From an uncultured bacterium (GTDB lineage: Bacteria; Pseudomonadota; Alphaproteobacteria; Rhodospirillales; Rhodospirillaceae): a stretch of DNA of 64,000 bases. The notes beneath the pieces are model-generated. The model did no database searches and was not told the origin of the DNA. It saw only the letters and a program-made list of their open reading frames with translations. Position 1 is the first letter of the stretch. The number at the start of each line of letters is the position of its first letter. The DNA is taken from the NCBI GenBank assembly GCA_903888485.1, contig CAISTS010000061.1, positions 1 to 64,000 of the forward strand, in the 5' to 3' direction. Positions 47,993 through 59,824 of the stretch are shown in pieces. The position numbers and the translations under genes were made by a program.

Positions 47993-49123
47993 GTGGCAGG
48001 ACTATCGATCGAAGACGTCAACCGTTTGGCGCAGGATCCTTCGCCTGCGACCCGTGCGGGCACGGCCGCCAAGCTGGCGCAGCAGTTCAGCACGGCCCAC
48101 TTCACCGAGGGCGAACTCAAGCTCGCCGAGCAGATTTTCCGCGTCATGGTGCGCGACGCCGAGGTGCGCGTGCGCGAGGCGCTGTCGGCCAACCTCAAAC
48201 ATAACCCGCTGCTGCCGCACGATGTAGCCATGGCGCTCGCCAAGGATGTGGATTCCGTCGCCTTGCCGGTGCTGTCGGCCTCCGAAGTGCTGACGACGGA
48301 AGACCTGGTCCAGATCGTCCGCAGCCAAAACTCGCCGCAGCGCCTCGACGCCATTGCCGGCCGCAGGGAAGTGGCCGCGCCGGTGTCCGCCGCCATCGTC
48401 GATGTCGGCAACGAGAACGTGGTCGCCAAGCTGCTGGCGAATCCCGGCGCCGAGATCGCCGAGCCGACGTTGCACAAGGTTGTCGACAAGTTCGGTCATA
48501 GCGAAGCAATCCAGAACCCGCTGGTGCACCGCCAGGTGCTGCCGGTGACCGTAGCCGAGCGGCTGGTGACGCACGTCGCCGAACACTTGCGCGCGCACTT
48601 GCTCTCCAATCACAAGATCTCAGCCGATCTCGCTCTCGACATCGTGCTGCAAAGCCGTGAGCGCGCCACCGTCGGTATCGCCATGGGCGTCAGCGAGGCG
48701 GGTCTTGCCGCCCTCGTCGGCCAGCTCAAGGAAGGCAAGCGCCTCACCGGATCGCTGGCGCTGCGCGCCATCTGCATGGGCAATACACGCTTTTTCGAGC
48801 ATGCCGTCGCGGCGCTGGCCGGTATTCCGGTCGGCAATGCGCGCGTCTTGATCCACGATCCCGGCCACCGCGGTTTGGTGACGGTCTGGGCCAAAGCGAA
48901 GCTGCCGGAATCCTATCTGCCTGCGGTCAAAGCGGCCCTCGACGTGGTGGCGCAGACCGAACTCGACGGTCTCGAACTCGATCCCGAGCGCTATTCGCGG
49001 CGCATCATCGAGCGCGTGCTGACGCAGTACGAAACACTCGGCGTCGAATTCAACGACGACGATCTCGAGTATCTGCTGGCGAAGGTTCACCAGCTCCCGG
49101 CCGCGTCAGTGAGTGTTCACTAA
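47993..49123 (+). CDS. DUF2336 domain-containing protein
   Basis: 376 residues, mostly helical repeat-like. The N-terminal half (to about 250) has the HEAT-like character of DUF2336: LSIEDVNRLAQDPSPATRAG, EIFRV-type helices, VRVREALSANLKHNP and SQNSPQRLDAIAGRREVAAPVS. These proteins are widespread in alphaproteobacteria; function is not firmly known. Start GTG 47993 is supported by AAGGGGA upstream; GTG 47969 is in frame but without RBS. No membrane segment. A decayed RND efflux fragment overlaps its end on the other strand. Confidence 0.85.
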   Translation: MAGLSIEDVNRLAQDPSPATRAGTAAKLAQQFSTAHFTEGELKLAEQIFRVMVRDAEVRVREALSANLKHNPLLPHDVAMALAKDVDSVALPVLSASEVLTTEDLVQIVRSQNSPQRLDAIAGRREVAAPVSAAIVDVGNENVVAKLLANPGAEIAEPTLHKVVDKFGHSEAIQNPLVHRQVLPVTVAERLVTHVAEHLRAHLLSNHKISADLALDIVLQSRERATVGIAMGVSEAGLAALVGQLKEGKRLTGSLALRAICMGNTRFFEHAVAALAGIPVGNARVLIHDPGHRGLVTVWAKAKLPESYLPAVKAALDVVAQTELDGLELDPERYSRRIIERVLTQYETLGVEFNDDDLEYLLAKVHQLPAASVSVH

Positions 49124-49243
49124 TCTGGGCTTTGCCAGCCGCATCGGCATCAGGGTGAGCGAGGTGATGCCCGAGATGAGGATGGCGGCGCTGGCCGTGG
49201 CGGCGAATTCGCGGAACAGGCGCCCGACCATGCCCGTCTTCAT
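49106..49243 (-). pseudogene. Decayed fragment of an RND (HAE1/AcrB-type) efflux pump
   Basis: About 45 codons on the minus strand read VGRLFREFAATASAAILISG then TSLTLMPM, closely matching the conserved RND-pump helix region with GRLFREFAVTL and SLTLTPM. The frame is closed by a TAG just upstream and a TGA downstream, and no other pump sequence is seen nearby. It overlaps the 3' end of the DUF2336 gene by 18 bp. Best explained as the relic of a lost efflux operon. Confidence 0.8.
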
Positions 49244-49419
49244 TCCGCTCCTGTTGATGGGCTAAGCGCCGCCTGCCTCGCTCTTCAACCCAATAAGCGG
49301 CGAGGAACCTGCAACGTGGCTCCTTCACATATAATTTAATGCCGAATCAATGCGGAACGCCTGTATCCATCACCTCGACATCGTGCGTGAACAATTTAGC
49401 GTTCAGACGCGGCTTTTTT

Positions 49420-49875
49420 TCACCATACGCCGGTGTTCGGCATCGAAGCCCAGGGCTCGGCCGGCGCCTTGGCCTCGCCCTTTTGCAAAAGCTCGATCGA
49501 GATGTTGTCGGGCGAGCGGATGAACGCCATGCGGCCGTCGCGCGGCGGACGGTTGATGATCACGCCCGCCGCCTGGAGCCGCGCGCAAAGCCCGTAGATG
49601 TCGTCGACCTCAAAGGCGACGTGCCCGAAGTTGCGCCCGCCGGTGTAAACCTCGGGGTCCCAGTTGTAGGTGAGCTCGAGGCGCGGGCTTTGCCGCGTCA
49701 CATCCTCGACCGCGGCACCGTTGGCGGCATCGTCGCGCGCGGCGAGGAAGATCAGGGTGAAGCGACCCTTCTCACTGTCCGTGCGCCGCGTCTCCACCAT
49801 GCCCAGCTTGTTGCAATAGAAGTCTAGCGACGCAGCGAGATCGGCGACGCGAACCATGGTGTGCAGGTAGCGCAT
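49420..49875 (-). CDS. gloA: Lactoylglutathione lyase (glyoxalase I)
   Basis: Converts the methylglyoxal-glutathione hemithioacetal to S-lactoylglutathione. 151 residues from ATG 49875, which has GGAG seven bases upstream; a longer in-frame start at 49965 looks non-coding. Aligned with E. coli GloA, all four metal ligands are present: His5 (MRYLHTMVRV), Glu in RLELTYNWD, His in FGHVAFEVDD and Glu in ISIELLQKG. Two VOC repeats. Its C terminus extends about 15 residues past E. coli GloA. Monocistronic, 260 bp upstream of and divergent from the large LamG protein. Confidence 0.92.
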   Translation of the reverse strand: MRYLHTMVRVADLAASLDFYCNKLGMVETRRTDSEKGRFTLIFLAARDDAANGAAVEDVTRQSPRLELTYNWDPEVYTGGRNFGHVAFEVDDIYGLCARLQAAGVIINRPPRDGRMAFIRSPDNISIELLQKGEAKAPAEPWASMPNTGVW

Positions 49876-50134
49876 GCAAGACTCCGGAGAGGTGTGAACG
49901 CGGGGGCCGGTTATAACAAAATCGCCGCGCGGCGCCTGCCCTCCGCGCCCACCCACATCTTGCAACCGGCGCGCGCGCTCAAGCGTTGTGACATAACGCT
50001 ATTGTGCAACTTGTAAGCGAGCCATCACTCGCATTTGAGCTAGGGCTAACTCACGGTTTTTATTGGATTTCTATGGCCGTCCCTGAGATGGTAAGCGCGA
50101 TTTCGCCGGACAGCCGGCTGGGGTAGACTGCGAA

Positions 50135-53100
50135 ATGGGTCGGACGCGGCACAGTGCAACTTCGCGGCGCGCTGCGCGCGAAGATAAGAAGGGGTTGGCG
50201 GGGTTGGGTCTAGCGTTTGTGAAAGCCGTCCGCCGGCGGCTGGCCGATGAGGCCGGCGTCGCCGGTTTGCTCGTTGCCGGCCTGGTGGCGATCGTCGCGT
50301 TCACGTCGCTGACGGTCTATCTGCGCGGCTATTTCGCCGACCGCGAATTCGCGCGCGTGGTGGGCACAGGCTCGCGGTCGAGCACGTTGCTGCCCTCGGT
50401 AATAACCTATCTCGTTGACCCGTCGAGGACCACGCATCGTCTGCCGTGCCCCGATGTCACGGCGACGCCGAACGGAACTGCTGACGAAACTTCGAACGTA
50501 TGCGACGGCACGACCGGTGTAATTCCCTGGGTGACCCTCGGCATTTCTCGCGAGGATGCCATCGATCCTTTCGGCAACTACTATCGCTACTCTATCTCGA
50601 CGGTGGCGCGGAACGTATGCTCGACGGTCACCAGCGATATTCCTGGGGCCACAGCGACGACCACGGTTACCGGCGGCCTGATCGATCCTACGGACCTCAC
50701 TTTCATTCAGGCTAACGGCGAAACCCGCAACGTGCCGTTCGCTATCATCAGCCACGGACAGAATGGTCTTGGCGCAAAGAGCGGCACGACGGGCGCGAGC
50801 CGTTCAAACCCAACCAGCGACAACGAAGTCGCCAATACCGACGCGACCTTACCTGCCACTATTCACGGCGGTCCCTACACCGTCGATACGGACTCAACCG
50901 ATAGCACGGACACCACATTCGACGACCAGGTTATGGCGCCGACGACGTCGCAGCTCCGGCAATCGTGCGAAGAGCTCACGCCTGCTGGCAAGCTCAATGC
51001 TGAAGTCGCCGAGAATTTCAGCGACCCTACAATCAGCACCACGAAATTCGCCACCCCGAACAATGTCACGTCAATTGTCCAGCCCGGCGCGCCCGGCAAT
51101 CGCGTAGGGGAATTCGACGGCGCCGTTGCGTACCTCGCCACCAATGCGAGTTATAGCTTTTTGCCAACGGTGCGTCCGGTCTACGTATCAGCGTTGTGGA
51201 TACCTAACGCGGATGCATCTGGTGGTACGCCAAATCACGGGGGCATCTCGATCGCTTCCCGTGTCACGTTGGCAGATTTGGACGACAACGACAGCAGCGT
51301 TTCGAACGACATCTTTGACGAGAATACAGCCCTGGGCTTGACGTTTCGCTTCTACGAAACCGGCATTTCAGGCGGCAACAGCAGTGACGCTGGCGTCACC
51401 AATACCATTTCGATTCAAAATAGCGACGGCACGGTTACGACCACCGGAGACAACAGCTATACGCTTATCAATGGCGAAACCTATCGTCTCGAAGTTTATG
51501 ACAATGGCTCCGATGCCTGGATGCGCATCACCCAGATTGATAATACCTCGAACACCGCGATGATCAGGGGAACTGACGCGACCGATCTCTCCGGCGAGCA
51601 GCGCGTCATGTTCATTAACGACTTTCAAACGCCCAACGCCTCCGTCAGCTACCTCGACGACCTTGTTATCGGCGTTCCGATGTTGGCGCTGGAGACCGGT
51701 CTATCTGCCACCGACATCGTGACTTCGGGGGGTAACAACAACGGCTCGACAACGCGCAATCTGACGGTGGAATCCTGGGTCAAAGTGAAGGCTTTCCCGA
51801 CGGGATCGAACCGCGCCGCGCTCATTTCCCAATGGAACCTTACCGCTTCGGCGAGTTCGCAGTCGTACCGGCTCTACTTCGACGGCGCGAATAACGACCA
51901 GCTGGCCTTTGATATCGGAACGACCCTGCCGGACATCGATTCCGATCCAAACACGGTTACGCCGGGGTTTGGAACCGAACATTTTGATCTTCAGTTCAAA
52001 CCTGACCTAGACAAATGGAACCATATTGCGGTCTCGTTCGATTATTCGAGCAAAGCGGTCCGGTTGTACGTTAACGGGGACCTCGCGGCCGTCGGGCACA
52101 GCAGCAGCAGCAGCGGTGCGGGCATCAATACGTCGATATCGCAACCGCTTACCGTGGGGGCACTCTACAGCGGTTCTACTGTCTCGGATGTGTTCGCGGG
52201 GAACATCTCGGATGTGCGCATTTGGAACGTGGTGCGTGACTCGGCCAGTATTCGAAGCAGTTACAAGAACCGCCTCAGTCTCGCGCTGACACAAGCGTCC
52301 GACGGGCTTGTCGCCAACTGGGTGTTCGACAATGAGTCCGGTACCGTAAGCAATGCCGAGAACGTTCAGGCAGACCCGTCCACAGCGACCGACGGCGATC
52401 TGCAAGGCAGTGCCGTGTACGTCGCCAGCCTGGCGACCTACACGCGCCCGCTGTCTACGGACACAGGTTTCTGTCCCGTAGGAACGCGCGCGGGGCCGTA
52501 TCAATGCGATTTCCGCACCAGTTCGGCGAGCGGCTCAACCTCCTCCAGCGTGCGCATCCCGGCCAACCTGCGGGCTTTCTACGCCAAGGTCTGGGGCGCG
52601 GGTGGCGGAGGCTACGATCCAACCGGAACCACAACCGACACGCCGGGCGGACCCGGTGGCTTCTCCGGTGGCCTGGTGCGCCAGGTCGGCCCCAGCGGTT
52701 CGTTGGAGGACGTGTATAACAAAACCCTCGCGTTCTACACCGGCGGCTACGGCACGGGCTCATCGGCTTCACGTGAAGGCGGCGGCGGCGGGGCGGGTTC
52801 GGGGATTTACTACACCAATACGACACCAGTGACCTCCGCAGTGGTTGTCGCCGGTGGTGGTGGCGGCGCCGCTTACAGCGCAAACGGCGGCACCTGTTCA
52901 TCGACGGGCGTACTCGACAGCAATGCGCGCTGCGGCATCGGCGACGTGGGCGGCGGCTACAACACTTCCATCGCAAGCGCGCGCGCACCTAGTTCAACGA
53001 CCCTGTGCGGCGGACGACGTGGCGACAATTCGCCCGGGTCTTCAAATCCCCCCAACGCCACGTGCCCCAATCCGACCGGCTCGACGGGCGATCCGTCGGG

Positions 53101-53812
53101 CCAAGTCGGCGGCGGCGATTCCAGCGGGGGCCCAGCCGGCGGCGCGCCGTCGTTCATTGCCGGCGGACGTGGCTTCACGGGCAGCAGCTCTGGCAGCCGT
53201 ATCGGCAGCGGCGGCGGCGGTGGCGGCTTCTTGGGCGGCGAGGCCGGGGGCTACGATGACGGCGCTAATACAACAGGCTTCGGCGGTGGCGGGGGATCGG
53301 GCTCGATCGGCGCTGGCGTGGTCAACGGCGTGGGAGTGCTCGGTAGCGTCACCTACAATGCCGCGGGTTCCTACGTGACATCGGCCACCGGCAGTTGGAC
53401 GACCGGGAATTACCCCGTCACGGTGACGATGTCATCGGTCACAATCGGTGCGGGCGGTTGGGTGGCCGGTTGCACCGTCAGCGCGGGTGGCGGTCTGCAC
53501 ATCGGTTCCGGCGGCAACACCATAGAGTCCGTTGGATCTTCGAGTTCTTATACATTCGTTCTGCAGGACGCCACTAATGGTGCCAATGGCAACCTAGAGA
53601 GCGGCACAATCACCTTCAACTGCAGCAGCGTCATCGTCGCCGGTTTCTCGACGGCCGCGGGCAACGCGAGCGACGCGTATTACTCGCCATCATATCTCAA
53701 TACGACCGCGAACGAGGATGCGCTTGAGCATCCGGGCCGTGGTGGCACGACTGAAGTGACCAACTCTACCTCGCGCAACGGTAAAGGCGGCGCGATTGTC
53801 ATTCTCTGGTAA
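50135..53812 (+). CDS. Giant membrane-anchored pseudopilin-like / LamG / glycine-rich surface protein
   Basis: 1225 residues. A basic 40-residue N terminus precedes one membrane helix (about 43-62, GLLVAGLVAIVAFTSLTVYL), in the place of a prepilin helix though without the usual GFTLIE. The next 200 residues carry a pseudopilin-type block: HRLPCPDVTATPNGTADE, a cysteine pair, GVIPWVTLGISREDAIDPFGN and YYRYS. Residues about 310-520 and 520-760 resemble concanavalin/LamG folds (LTVESWVKVKAF, DKWNHIAVSFDYSSKAVRLY, ISDVRIWNVVRDSASI). The last 420 residues are Gly/Ser-rich (VWGAGGGGYD, GGGGGAGSGIYY) with a short terminal region. No neighbouring pilus or secretion gene. Probably cell-surface and sugar- or matrix-binding, by inference. 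Confidence 0.82.
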   Translation: MGRTRHSATSRRAAREDKKGLAGLGLAFVKAVRRRLADEAGVAGLLVAGLVAIVAFTSLTVYLRGYFADREFARVVGTGSRSSTLLPSVITYLVDPSRTTHRLPCPDVTATPNGTADETSNVCDGTTGVIPWVTLGISREDAIDPFGNYYRYSISTVARNVCSTVTSDIPGATATTTVTGGLIDPTDLTFIQANGETRNVPFAIISHGQNGLGAKSGTTGASRSNPTSDNEVANTDATLPATIHGGPYTVDTDSTDSTDTTFDDQVMAPTTSQLRQSCEELTPAGKLNAEVAENFSDPTISTTKFATPNNVTSIVQPGAPGNRVGEFDGAVAYLATNASYSFLPTVRPVYVSALWIPNADASGGTPNHGGISIASRVTLADLDDNDSSVSNDIFDENTALGLTFRFYETGISGGNSSDAGVTNTISIQNSDGTVTTTGDNSYTLINGETYRLEVYDNGSDAWMRITQIDNTSNTAMIRGTDATDLSGEQRVMFINDFQTPNASVSYLDDLVIGVPMLALETGLSATDIVTSGGNNNGSTTRNLTVESWVKVKAFPTGSNRAALISQWNLTASASSQSYRLYFDGANNDQLAFDIGTTLPDIDSDPNTVTPGFGTEHFDLQFKPDLDKWNHIAVSFDYSSKAVRLYVNGDLAAVGHSSSSSGAGINTSISQPLTVGALYSGSTVSDVFAGNISDVRIWNVVRDSASIRSSYKNRLSLALTQASDGLVANWVFDNESGTVSNAENVQADPSTATDGDLQGSAVYVASLATYTRPLSTDTGFCPVGTRAGPYQCDFRTSSASGSTSSSVRIPANLRAFYAKVWGAGGGGYDPTGTTTDTPGGPGGFSGGLVRQVGPSGSLEDVYNKTLAFYTGGYGTGSSASREGGGGGAGSGIYYTNTTPVTSAVVVAGGGGGAAYSANGGTCSSTGVLDSNARCGIGDVGGGYNTSIASARAPSSTTLCGGRRGDNSPGSSNPPNATCPNPTGSTGDPSGQVGGGDSSGGPAGGAPSFIAGGRGFTGSSSGSRIGSGGGGGGFLGGEAGGYDDGANTTGFGGGGGSGSIGAGVVNGVGVLGSVTYNAAGSYVTSATGSWTTGNYPVTVTMSSVTIGAGGWVAGCTVSAGGGLHIGSGGNTIESVGSSSSYTFVLQDATNGANGNLESGTITFNCSSVIVAGFSTAAGNASDAYYSPSYLNTTANEDALEHPGRGGTTEVTNSTSRNGKGGAIVILW

Positions 53813-53815
53813 TCC

Positions 53816-55648
53816 TCAGTACTGAAATTCCAGATACAGCCACACCTTCGTCGTGTCGGATTCGAAGGTCTTGGCGTCGTACTGGGCGAAGCGCACGCCG
53901 AGCGTGGCGCGGCTCAGCACGCTGAAGTTCAGGTCGGCATCGAACTCCGAGCCGTAGTGGACGCCGCCGCGCGCGGCGCGGAAATCGTGATAGCGCAGGT
54001 CGAGGCGCGGATTGACGATGAAGCCGGCGTCCGGCATCTCGGCCATGAGGCGCACATGCCGATCGCTCAGCCCATCGGCCGGCGTGGTCAGGAATACATC
54101 GGCCCAGCCGTTGTGGCGGTGGAGCGTGGCGAGCGGCGTCTGCACGGCGTCAACGCCGTTACCGCCCAGGTGCTCCCATCCTGCCGCCAGCGTGATGTCG
54201 TACCAGCGCACCATGGGCCGCAGCAGGGCGTAGGTGACGGCGTAGGAATTGGGATTGCGCGCGTAGTCGGTCTGGCGCGCGAGTTCGGCTTCGACGCCGT
54301 AAGCAAAGTCCTCGTTGGGCTGAACAAAGCCGTCGTAGCGCACGCCGTACGTGGCGGACGACATCCGCGGCCCCGGTGCGAGGTCGAGCAAGTAGGCGTA
54401 GGCCGTGGTGATGCCAAAAGGCGTGGCATTCGTCGCGACCGACAGCAGGTGGCTGTCGCTGCCCCAATGTCCGTTCGGATTGTTGCCAAGCACGCGGTTG
54501 ATGCGGTCGAGATAGGCATAACGTACGCCGAGGTTCGCAAGCGGCCGCGCTTCGACGCTCAGCGCATCGACCGTCTGATCGTTCTGGCGGAAGGAACTGG
54601 GTCCGATCCAGCGTTCGTTATCGTACATGATGCGCTGGCGGCCGAGCACGACGCGCGTCCCCGCTAGACCATCGTCGACGGAACCATTGGCGAGCGGCAT
54701 CGTCCAGCCGACATAGGCGCGGTTGAGTACTTCGCTGTCGGGATCGGGGATCACCGGCAGGGTAGGCGTGTTGCGCACGCCGTCACTGCGCCGGCTGGAA
54801 AGATCGCGCGTGATCTCGCCTTCGATGCCGGCGAAGAAACCCTTGTAGGCGAGAGTCTCGTAACCCGCCCGCAGGCGCAGCGTCGTAGCGTTGGCCGTTT
54901 GCGGCCGGCTGTCCTGGTCGACAAATTCATAGCGCAGCCGCGCATCGAACTTGAACGTGCCGAACACGAGCGCCGATTGCGCCGTGTCCGCCGGAGCGAC
55001 GGGCTGGGCGTAATAGAACGGCCGGCTGGCGGGCGTGATCGTCACCAGACCCAGCGCGCGATTAACGCGTTCAGTGCCCCAGGTGAGCGCTTGACTGGGC
55101 GCGGCGCCCGCCCAGATGTCGGTGCCTTCGCCGGGGCGCAGGATTGTCTCGCCCCCCGCGTTGGTCACCGCGACTTCGTATCCCGAGAATAGCGCCACCG
55201 CGAGATGGGTGCCGTCTTCCATCTCGACAAAAAAATCGGTCCCGCGGATACCGATGCTGCCGACGGGGGTTGCGACCGTGACCGCTTGCGGACCGCCGAC
55301 GCGCTCGACCGCGCCGGCGACCAGGCGCATGGCGCCGCTGGTGACACGCAGCGCGGCGTTGTTGGCGCCGCCGGCTGGATTGAACACAAACTCGTCGATC
55401 ACGATCTCGGCACTGGGGCCCAGCGTCAGCTTGGTACCGTCGATGAAGGTGATGAGCACTTTGCCGTCGATGGCGGTCTCGACGATGTCGTCGCTAAAAA
55501 CGGGTGTATTGAGGGCCAAAACCAAGGTGCCGGCTTCGCGGGTGACGCTGCCGCGGCCTTGCAGTTGCGTCACGGTGCCAACGCTGGCGCTTTGCGCCCA
55601 GGCCGCGGCGCTGATGAACAGCACGCAGAATAGCAGTACGACCCGCAT
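53816..55648 (-). CDS. FecR-domain protein fused to an outer-membrane beta-barrel
   Basis: 610 residues with a signal peptide (to about 18, AAAWAQ). Residues about 20-190 form a FecR-type domain: VGTVTQLQGRGSVTRE, VFSDDIVETAIDGKVLITF, DGTKLTLGPSAEIVIDEFV, then the GSIGIRGTDFFVEMEDGTH motif. From about 225 to the end there is an alginate-export-like or porin-like barrel: repeated FDARLRYEFVDQDSR, LRLRAGYET, GVRYAYLDRINR and a C-terminal TTKVWLYLEFQY ending in Tyr. Classical FecR is an inner-membrane sensor; this fusion is unusual. Convergent with the giant LamG protein (3 bp between stops). Confidence 0.8.
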   Translation of the reverse strand: MRVVLLFCVLFISAAAWAQSASVGTVTQLQGRGSVTREAGTLVLALNTPVFSDDIVETAIDGKVLITFIDGTKLTLGPSAEIVIDEFVFNPAGGANNAALRVTSGAMRLVAGAVERVGGPQAVTVATPVGSIGIRGTDFFVEMEDGTHLAVALFSGYEVAVTNAGGETILRPGEGTDIWAGAAPSQALTWGTERVNRALGLVTITPASRPFYYAQPVAPADTAQSALVFGTFKFDARLRYEFVDQDSRPQTANATTLRLRAGYETLAYKGFFAGIEGEITRDLSSRRSDGVRNTPTLPVIPDPDSEVLNRAYVGWTMPLANGSVDDGLAGTRVVLGRQRIMYDNERWIGPSSFRQNDQTVDALSVEARPLANLGVRYAYLDRINRVLGNNPNGHWGSDSHLLSVATNATPFGITTAYAYLLDLAPGPRMSSATYGVRYDGFVQPNEDFAYGVEAELARQTDYARNPNSYAVTYALLRPMVRWYDITLAAGWEHLGGNGVDAVQTPLATLHRHNGWADVFLTTPADGLSDRHVRLMAEMPDAGFIVNPRLDLRYHDFRAARGGVHYGSEFDADLNFSVLSRATLGVRFAQYDAKTFESDTTKVWLYLEFQY

Positions 55649-58794: not shown

Positions 58795-58813
58795 CCCTGC
58801 TATAGTGCGGGCC

Positions 58814-59824
58814 ATGAAAAACGTTGTGCTTTTTGCCGTCGCACTGGTGGCTTCACTGTTCATGGCCGAGGCGGCGATGCGGGTGGCGGGCTTTGCGCCG
58901 CGCACGCCGCGGGTCAATCCGTTCTTCGTGCCGGGATCGGAGACAACCTGGTCGGTGCCTGACCCTGAACTTGGATGGATCAATAAAGAGGGGGTGTCGC
59001 GCGCCATCGAGGGCGATCACGTCGACATGACTTTCTGGAGTTTCGGCCGCCGGGCAACTCGGCCCGATGCCACGCCACCTGCAGGCGCGCAGCGGAAGGT
59101 CATGTTCATCGGCGGCAGCAATTTGCAGTCCTACGGCGTCAAGGATGAGGAATCGTTCCCTTACCTGCTGGGGCTACGCTATCCCGATATGGCCTTCGAG
59201 AACTTCGGCTCCGGCGGATATTCGACGGTGCAAGCCAAGCTGCTGGCCGAGCGCGCGCTCGAGAAATTTTACGGCGCGGACAAACCGACGTTGATGCTTC
59301 TGGCCTTCGACGATGCTCACATCTTGCGCAACGTTTCGGACCAGTCCTGGGTGTATTCGATTTCGGACGCGGAGGGACGTTACGTCGCGCCGCCGCATTA
59401 TCGTCTGCAGGATGGCAATCTGACATTCCATCCATTCCGTACTATTGGCTTTTGGCCGCTGGAACGGCAATCGGCGGCCTTGACGGTGCTGCACAACGTC
59501 TGGCTTCAGTCCGTCCTCTACAACAGCAGCCAGGAAGCGGTGCCGGTCACACGCGAGGTGGTGAGTGAAATCGCCGCTCTGGCCAAGAGTAAAGGGATTG
59601 CCTTCGCTGCAGTTATCCTCGACGACCGCGGCCAGACCGCGAAGCAGGTCTTCGAGGGTCAACCGTTCCCGTGGCATGACTGCTCGGGCTTAGAGCGCAG
59701 CGCGCCGCAGGAATACATGCTCAAGGAAGGCAGTCATCCCAACCCTAAACTGCACGCTCATCTTGCGATGTGCATCGGCGACTGGCTGGACGCGGAAATC
59801 CTGCCGGGGCTTGCGCCCGGCTAG
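58814..59824 (+). CDS. SGNH/GDSL-hydrolase-like exported protein
   Basis: 336 residues. A signal anchor is at 5-24 (LFAVALVASLFMAEAAMRVAG). The SGNH blocks can be seen: VMFIGGSNLQSYGVKDEESF (block I), ENFGSGGYSTVQAKL (block II glycine), LMLLAFDDAHILRN and a final block SHPNPKLHAHLAMCI, where the catalytic Asp/His pair would be. The nucleophilic serine is in GGSN. Such proteins deacylate or acylate envelope polymers; the substrate is unknown. I chose ATG 58814 over GTG 58805. Its stop overlaps the convergent methyltransferase gene's stop. Confidence 0.78.
   Translation: MKNVVLFAVALVASLFMAEAAMRVAGFAPRTPRVNPFFVPGSETTWSVPDPELGWINKEGVSRAIEGDHVDMTFWSFGRRATRPDATPPAGAQRKVMFIGGSNLQSYGVKDEESFPYLLGLRYPDMAFENFGSGGYSTVQAKLLAERALEKFYGADKPTLMLLAFDDAHILRNVSDQSWVYSISDAEGRYVAPPHYRLQDGNLTFHPFRTIGFWPLERQSAALTVLHNVWLQSVLYNSSQEAVPVTREVVSEIAALAKSKGIAFAAVILDDRGQTAKQVFEGQPFPWHDCSGLERSAPQEYMLKEGSHPNPKLHAHLAMCIGDWLDAEILPGLAPG

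Follow-up and report, generated by a model that had tools for sequence, protein, structure and literature searches.

Within the 64-kb window, which is the whole stretch of DNA that was analyzed, a single open reading frame on the + strand runs from an ATG at position 50135 to a stop at 53812. It encodes a protein of 1225 aa, here called P0001. Matches spanning at least 500 residues were found in 13 of 60 relatives' genomes, and for this reason we regard the observation as more than a product of chance. The following features were recognized along the gene:

50135..53812, + strand: coding sequence of the modular pilin-like protein P0001 (1225 aa), from the open reading frame and the long matches in relatives' genomes
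50135..50257, + strand: leader, residues 1-41, basic and ending in Gly41 (position -1, the putative prepilin-peptidase site), from the conserved Gly
50258..50413, + strand: alpha1 helix, residues 42-93, with Leu at mature position 5, from the AlphaFold helix and alignment
50414..51004, + strand: pilin globular head, residues 94-290, with the motifs LPCP, PW..LG, HG.N, and FDD and four Cys, from alignment, AlphaFold, and homology to the short prepilins L002 and L003
51005..51709, + strand: domain X, residues 291-525, kept across the family in the alignment; comparison with LamG is unsupportive
51743..52252, + strand: Laminin_G_3/ConA-like domain, residues 537-706, from Pfam (E 2.1e-17) and profile matches to the PDB
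52460..53809, + strand: predicted C-terminal TNF-like/glycine-rich (TG-type) domain, residues 776-1225, from a structure model and fold comparison

P0001 has no match in NCBIfam and, at E values up to 1, none to the Pfam domain of the PilY1/PilC tip adhesins (PF05567). Translated in one frame, the antisense strand of the gene contains many stops.

On the basis of sequence comparison and modeling, residues 42 to 290 are best explained as a type IV pilin module. The initial annotation had described a prepilin-like N-terminal helix and a pseudopilin-style cysteine block, and both are present. In the AlphaFold model of the module (residues 42-290 region; pLDDT 86.8, pTM 0.81), a 55-residue helix (model positions 6 to 60, residues 39 to 93) is followed by strands and a beta head, a confident prediction that leaves the pseudopilin reading of residues 70 to 270 standing. 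The Cys/LPCP block includes C105, C123, C162, and C278, the last two of which are listed as invariant in an alignment of 11 sequences. A Foldseek search with the predicted head found no PDB fold at E 0.001. The VIA comparison of the pilin module gave six rows with Z of at least 2, the top two of them unrelated; the best pilin row, from the gonococcal pilus (5vxx; Z 2.8, rmsd 5.1, 108 residues), ranks below these two.

Sequence homology provides another link to pilins. P0001 is homologous to two short proteins of its own genome, the paralogues on contigs C46 and C26 (E 2.9e-6 and 3.4e-6), and the C26 paralogue scores above the cut-off of the Pfam N_methyl motif and carries GFTLIEM directly after its leader. 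Short canonical prepilins encoded in type IV pilus loci are homologous to it as well. Furthermore, a family profile that includes canonical members matches type IV pilins (geopilin, E 2.3e-7; gonococcal fimbrial protein, 0.0033; PilE, 0.0054; GspG, 0.0097), and in many rows of these matches profile position 22 aligns with residue 1 of the chain. A profile built solely from members that lack Glu at mature position 5 (Glu5) retrieved no significant pilin (geopilin, E 1.7), so it is the family members with Glu5 that supply the homology behind the pilin claim.

The absence of Glu5 is a consistent property of the long proteins. Sixteen distinct long relatives, P0001 counted in, have an intact N terminus; in every one of them Gly occupies position -1 and Glu5 is missing. 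Gly-1 is also the sole invariant residue in the N-terminal segment of alignment A7, whose members were selected in part by a pattern that demands Gly; since they were also chosen for lacking Glu5, their Glu5 count (0 of 20) is not used as evidence. The 41-residue leader of P0001 is long, some relatives' leaders look shorter, and the start codon is not proven. The N_methyl motif (PF07963) matches seven other places in the genome, but P0001 has no match to it at E up to 1. It is likewise absent from all nine long Glu5-less relatives, and it was present in 6/6 Glu5-containing family members as opposed to 0/3 Glu5-less ones.

Beyond the pilin module, two LamG-like regions had been proposed, one of which held up. 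Laminin_G_3 (PF13385) covers residues 537 to 706 at 64.1 bits, against a gathering score of 27.6, and the profile of this domain matches structures of pentraxin, pappalysin, and sialidase L. The other region, residues 291 to 525, was rejected as a LamG domain: it has no Pfam match, its profile found no PDB sequence match up to E 1, and the probability was 0.3% when hhalign compared it with the genuine LamG domain. This domain X may be a beta-sandwich.

The C terminus is rich in Gly and Ser, as first described (24.4% Gly and 13.3% Ser over residues 776 to 1225). Our model predicts that this tail is a folded TG-type head as opposed to a mere matrix stretch. With the low-pLDDT stretches kept (mean pLDDT 56.4; 194 of 450 residues below 50), the model aligned with the TG domains of ALK/LTK at Z 14.4-15.8 (12 rows, 191-213 residues, rmsd 3.1-3.6) and with phage tail tips at Z 11.6-12.2, while the next, unrelated row fell to 4.5. 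Foldseek TM-scores were low (0.26-0.30 by query length, ALK rows). The resemblance to ALK does not come from sequence searching, because ALK was absent among the four PDB matches of the Gly-rich profile; one of these was to an HCN1 channel (2.9e-5) and the rest were to integrases. Among 13 Gly-rich members, five match Pfam Gly_rich_2 (PF21722) with E values of 0.01 or below, the best being 2.7e-6, and three PHROGs families are each matched by one; P0001 itself matches none of these. The first cysteines and the closing strands of the tail (KVWGxGGG ... GAVVLxW) are conserved. In cyanophage Pam3, such TG-like domains are described as recognizing the host receptor (PMC9608196).

The genome contains machinery that could handle such a protein, although not next to the gene. 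The absence of pilus genes within 10 kb was borne out for 13 different neighboring genes that were scanned, as distinct from every open reading frame (eight presumed genes and one antisense frame, then nine, four of them shared). Contig C46 carries an MshE-type type IV pilus (T4P) locus with a secretin, an MshEN+T2SSE ATPase, a T2SSF platform protein, two PilT/PilU-type ATPases, an A24 prepilin peptidase, and an N_methyl pilin, and the short P0001 homologue of that contig sits at the end of the locus. In addition, a T2SS-like cluster on contig C18 contains a T2SSF protein and four N_methyl prepilins. By eye, these prepilins resemble GspG-H-I-J, and a Glu5-less GspK-like gene lies nearby.

Relatives connect the carrier module with T4P genes. 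Searching the species genomes with only P0001 as the query confirmed no relative; the search with alignment A2 gave 30 loci. In six relatives' loci (L045, L047, L055, L057, L077, and L079), Glu5-less genes of the carrier family adjoin T4P genes. Most LamG/TG genes themselves do not adjoin pilus genes, in flanks that are often short: T4P genes were seen near them in one of the 15 closest loci (L028-L041 and L043), namely L035, with distances of 6.1 kb to a canonical short homologue and roughly 8.3 kb to pilT, and in none of six larger regions (L082-L087). Related carriers have quite different C termini. In the same genomic neighborhood, the window has the LamG/TG version whereas a related genus has a lectin-like one, and in L079 and L077 the Glu5-less genes encode additional domains with a link to legume lectin. 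Extensions of more than 150 aa occurred in 23 of 30 complete homologues without Glu5 versus 3 of 30 with it, a count uncorrected for relatedness in which two Glu5-less assignments (L006 and L054) come from truncated N termini. Twelve of 72 rows had been dropped beforehand: four were unclassifiable and eight were cut by a contig end, seven of these without Glu5 and one with Glu5 and a 426-residue extension.

Co-occurrence across genomes is not used as proof, because most positives belong to one genus. T2SSF, a family whose members include proteins of other systems too, was found in 16/16 genomes with a long match (E 1e-20 or better) versus 30/45 others (Fisher p 0.006), and the PF06750 peptidase in 14/16 (all except G006 and G010) versus 15/45 (p 0.0003). 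A search for PilY1 matched 0 of 61 genomes, but control genomes gave no match either.

Judging from sequence and structure models, we think it likely that P0001 is a tip-located modular minor pilin with a lectin-like and TG head. It is probably a pilus-tip adhesin in which known parts appear in a new combination. The T4P locus in the same genome and the Glu5-less carrier relatives beside T4P genes lend good support to the earlier proposal, a minor-pilin-tip adhesin that a distant system assembles. The leader would be removed after Gly41 by an A24 prepilin peptidase, and the hydrophobic alpha1 helix would then allow entry into the filament. P0001 would occupy the top of the minor-pilin complex, since it lacks Glu5 and no subunit needs to dock above the tip. 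A capping subunit without Glu5 is described for a published tip complex (PMC10191384), and the same is reported for known tip subunits (PMC10191384, PMC9934059). Domain X and the ConA/LamG lectin-like domain follow the pilin module, and the TNF-like/glycine-rich head would project from the tip and bind a ligand on a surface, either a glycan or a protein; retraction by PilT/PilU-type ATPases would pull the cell to its target. As the machine, the MshE-type T4P of contig C46 is more likely than the T2SS-like cluster.

Assembly by that cluster would instead make P0001 a pseudopilin, a tip subunit of the GspK type that uses its additional domains to recruit secreted substrates or to present them. 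The gene content of C18 fits this scenario, and HIJK sets of different systems have been reported to be functionally interchangeable (PMC9934059). Yet the relatives of the carrier adjoin T4P-type genes, the cluster seems, by eye, to own a GspK-like gene already, and P0001 has no T2SSK Pfam match (to E 1). Large lectin and receptor-type domains are also a better fit to exposure than to a periplasmic pseudopilus, and we regard this scenario as unlikely.

Two further explanations were considered. If a pilin ancestor had lost processing, P0001 could simply be an inner-membrane protein with a signal anchor and periplasmic domains. This improbable outcome is favored by the lack of Glu5 and of an N_methyl match, along with flanks in which LamG/TG genes usually do not lie near pilus genes, but an unprocessed anchor is at odds with the retention of Gly-1 in all 16 long relatives, and the lectin and receptor-binding domains would have no obvious periplasmic role. 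We give very little credence to a glycine-rich surface-matrix or S-layer-like protein, a reading that draws on the Gly/Ser-rich tail of about 450 residues. Raised at the outset, it is weakened by the fold match to ALK and phage fibers, with the tail predicted as a folded TG-type domain, and the conservation of its first cysteines and closing strands and the quite different C termini of related carriers argue against it as well.

If P0001 is a tip pilin, it may exemplify something broader. Tentatively, and with less confidence than we place in P0001 itself, Alphaproteobacteria and some betaproteobacteria may possess a cryptic family of tip-capping pilins without Glu5 or N_methyl whose members act as exchangeable carriers of receptor-binding heads (LamG plus TG, legume-lectin-like, and others) and could, in these bacteria, do what PilY1 does elsewhere. 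On this reading the TG head has the ligand-recognition fold of phage tail tips and ALK/LTK, and pili and phage fibers would share an interchangeable tip toolkit. Our findings suggest that an entire class escapes surveys of modular pilins that rely on the N-methylation motif, since the presumed mark of a tip cap, the lack of Glu5, itself hides the family from the motif. Our models place the TG fold, a receptor-type fold found in ALK/LTK and in phage tail tips, on a probable pilus subunit, and the family offers a testable example of a single pilin carrier with exchangeable heads.

Exact-term searches of the open-licence PMC literature returned nothing on a glycine-rich and TNF-like pilin, a bacterial ALK/LTK TG domain, a LamG pilus-tip adhesin, or an Alphaproteobacteria MSHA minor pilin. 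The initial view that no characterized protein has this domain order nevertheless needs qualifying, because characterized modular pilins exist, among them Streptococcus sanguinis PilC with its ConA-like lectin module (PMC8179133, PMC9934059). ALK/LTK, cyanophage Pam3 gp24, and the Bxb1 tail tip have the fold predicted for residues 776 to 1225, but in P0001 this TG-type domain, modeled at low pLDDT, sits on a pilin and not on a kinase ectodomain or phage fiber. Like the K-type minor pilins GspK and PilK, which cap the tips of T2SS pseudopili and T4aP, P0001 has no Glu5. Unlike them, it has no T2SSK match, its extra domains are C-terminal and lectin/TG-like, and the genes of several relatives adjoin LPCP prepilins; P0001 has Gly-1. 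The survey of Raynaud et al. reports more than 1,200 modular pilins with 264 architectures and PF13385 among the 15 most frequent domains (PMC8179133); the term glycine-rich is absent from the main text of that survey. P0001, too, has non-pilus-specific domains grafted onto a pilin, PF13385 included (Laminin_G_3 and the TG-type head), and differs from that definition in lacking the IPR012902 motif, assessed as Pfam PF07963 only. The survey, as described there, required this motif, so a carrier such as P0001 would be missed. Also among the closest known systems, with sequences compared only through PDB profile searches, is S. sanguinis PilC, a modular pilin with an Ig-like and a ConA-like lectin module that is reported to promote adhesion by its grafted modules (PMC9934059). 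In contrast to P0001, PilC has Glu5, its class III signal peptide is canonical, its only modules are the Ig-like and the lectin module, and its host is a monoderm. We place P0001 among modular pilins of the type represented by S. sanguinis PilC, outside the published search criterion.

P0001, the 1225-residue protein of this stretch, is best read as a modular type IV pilin that would cap the pilus tip and bear a putative adhesive head. Its gene lies where the initial annotation had placed it, on the forward strand from an ATG at 50135 to a stop at 53812, and the opposite strand, in the one frame read, is crowded with stops. The genome containing the window comprises 3.49 Mb in 89 contigs (completeness 90.8%). 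Within the window the gene is solitary, and none of the 13 neighboring genes scanned belongs to a pilus or secretion system. The surroundings include the following features:

48002-49123: DUF2336/SpbR gene, farther from the P0001 gene
49420-49965, reverse strand: open frame of a glyoxalase gene (Pfam), divergent from the P0001 gene, with a conserved start, MRYLHTMV, at about 49875
53816-55648, reverse strand: FecR-domain gene (Pfam), convergent with the P0001 gene
55673-56599: DnaJ-like gene, farther from the P0001 gene
56728-57435, reverse strand, and 58805-59824, forward strand: open reading frames with no match in Pfam or NCBIfam

The order DUF2336/SpbR, glyoxalase, long pilin gene is kept in the window (48002-50134) and at loci L084, L086, L087, L030, and L089, several of which also have DnaJ. 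By eye, the sequence after the FecR domain has an aromatic last residue, as outer-membrane beta-barrels do (EFQY), and in both L086 and L028 a similar-looking gene adjoins that of the long pilin. The FecR-domain gene is a possible functional partner of P0001.

Two short homologues of P0001 are present in its own genome. One, on contig C26, is a textbook prepilin of 277 residues (MPSNTRGFTLIEMALTV...) that exceeds the N_methyl cut-off; the other is the last gene of contig C46, terminating a type IV pilus (T4P) locus. The LPCP, GVxPWxxLG, SHGxNGxG, and FDD head motifs are common to P0001, its long relatives, and these short prepilins, but the N-terminus of the long proteins is unlike that of the short ones. 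Among the 16 distinct long relatives with an intact N-terminus (P0001, L004, L005, L007, L008, L009, L011-L014, L016, L035, L037, L039, L040, and L041), Gly is invariant at position -1 and position 5 is occupied by Ala, Val, Ile, or Leu. The same pattern holds for 20 of 20 sequences in a further alignment (A7), but these were picked for the absence of Glu at position 5 (Glu5). The AlphaFold model of the pilin module has a helix (39-93) and then a beta head, with a mean pLDDT of 86.8. Comparison of the predicted head with PDB folds yielded nothing significant; 5vxx (Z 2.8) ranked under two unrelated rows. A whole-family profile, with canonical members included, matched solved type IV pilins, a few weak rows being non-pilins, and in many rows profile position 22 aligned with chain residue 1. 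A profile of Glu5-less members alone had no significant match to solved type IV pilins, and the pilin claim for P0001 therefore runs through homology.

As reported in PMC10191384, Glu5 of a filament subunit pairs with the N-terminus of the next subunit up, and the tip complex has as its cap a subunit that lacks Glu5. K subunits and Streptococcus sanguinis PilA also lack it (PMC9934059). Glu5-less and Glu5-containing family genes are adjacent in L019/L077, L022, L027, L042, L045, L047, L052, L053, L055, L056, and L079. Of 30 complete Glu5-less proteins, 23 carry an extension of >150 residues after the pilin module, versus 3 of 30 with Glu5, counts that are uncorrected for kinship and in which two Glu5-less assignments (L006 and L054) rest on truncated N-termini. 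This comparison left out 12 of 72 homologues: four unclassifiable and eight cut by contig ends (seven Glu5-less, one with Glu5 and a 426-residue extension). In one set, the N_methyl signature was found in all six Glu5-containing and none of three Glu5-less members; in a further set of long members, it was found in none of nine. Prepilin tandems of three to four LPCP genes each occur in alphaproteobacterial metagenome-assembled genomes, two titled Micavibrio (L052:8816-13840, L053:9716-12899, and L056:8562-12946). The final gene of each is without Glu5, an order that recalls H-I-J-K.

Other relatives bear, on the same pilin carrier, a C-terminus unlike that of P0001. That of L079 (genome G039) has weak legume-lectin matches (best E 5.4e-5, below gathering scores) and BLAST ties it to that of L077 (G030; 7.6e-11), which is linked in turn to L044 (6e-12), L049 (2.5e-20), and L089 (1.6e-8). 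A third kind is found in L017 and L018 (mutual match, 5.7e-30). Judging neighbors by eye, L089 (G019) has the lectin-like version within the DUF2336-glyoxalase neighborhood, and the same place holds the version with LamG and glycine-rich parts (LamG/TG) in the window, L084, L086, L087, and L030. At this DUF2336/SpbR-glyoxalase site, the C-terminal half of the L089 pilin differs from P0001.

Pfam places a single domain of P0001 above cut-off, Laminin_G_3 at 537-706, and NCBIfam gave no match to the protein. By profile, the LamG domain is akin to pentraxin, pappalysin, and sialidase L structures. The preceding domain X (291-525) is well conserved in the family. Pfam Gly_rich_2 matches 5 of 13 glycine-rich members. 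A model of the tail built from 13 sequences has a low mean pLDDT (56.4; 61-85 per block over the first 140 residues). With Foldseek against the PDB, ALK ectodomain chains took each of the five best places (E 4.1e-5 to 2.5e-4) but with low TM-scores (0.26-0.30 by query length), and the Pam3 phage fiber came next (E 0.011). VIA-align, run with low-pLDDT stretches retained, gave 12 ALK/LTK rows (Z 14.4-15.8, rmsd 3.1-3.6, 191-213 residues), with the Bxb1 tail tip and Pam3 fiber ranked below them (11.6-12.2) before a drop to 4.5. A sequence search with the tail did not find ALK. Given these ALK/LTK and phage fiber or tail-tip matches, the modeled tail is read as a putative terminal binding head. 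Against predicted viral proteins (BFVD), the model had 85 matches to E 0.001, and many of the 50 listed are glycine-rich proteins of phages or giant viruses. Several matched phage and algal-virus proteins are labeled "receptor protein-tyrosine kinase" despite being encoded by viruses, a name probably transferred by way of the ALK-type glycine-rich domain.

The T4P locus on C46 spans about 15 kb (L075:2529-17659) and holds an A24 prepilin peptidase, a secretin, an MshEN+T2SSE ATPase, a T2SSF platform protein, an N_methyl pilin, and two PilT/PilU-type ATPases. Pfam matched none of three additional genes in this locus; one is pilin-like and two occupy expected PilM/PilN-type places. On contig C12 (L074:1357-1818), a canonical prepilin gene is represented by its 5' part, whose final residues recur as the first residues of the C46-end fragment (L002), and thus the two contigs may meet within this gene. 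Contig C18 carries a T2SS-like set of T2SSF and four N_methyl prepilins (Gsp names by eye). Of the 16 genomes matched at E 1e-20 or better, all encode a T2SSF protein and 14 a PF06750 peptidase, a weak argument because most of these genomes are of one genus. Six loci (L045, L047, L055, L057, L077, and L079) have Glu5-less genes of the carrier family next to T4P genes. For the LamG/TG version, T4P genes were seen nearby in 1 of the 15 closest loci and 0 of 6 larger regions, with flanks often short; in the exception, L035, the gene's distance to a canonical short homologue is 6.1 kb and to pilT about 8.3 kb. In L035 and L036/L083 (G002:C8), metX/metW-like and hisC-like genes (named by eye) flank the LamG/TG gene. 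In L035 this stretch borders pilU-pilT-transglycosylase-prepilin, and some "orphan" copies may therefore sit at the edge of a T4P locus.

The titles of the 30 named relatives, all metagenome assembled, are Rhodospirillaceae (7), Alphaproteobacteria (7), "Candidatus Marinimicrobia" (7), other alphaproteobacterial names (6), and betaproteobacterial names (3). The Marinimicrobia title is probably wrong, since contigs of the window's genus occur under both this and the Rhodospirillaceae title, and the organism is probably an alphaproteobacterium. Because neither the N-methylation signature nor Glu5 was found when tested, P0001 is formally outside the published criterion for modular pilins. It is a variation on modular pilins that are already known.
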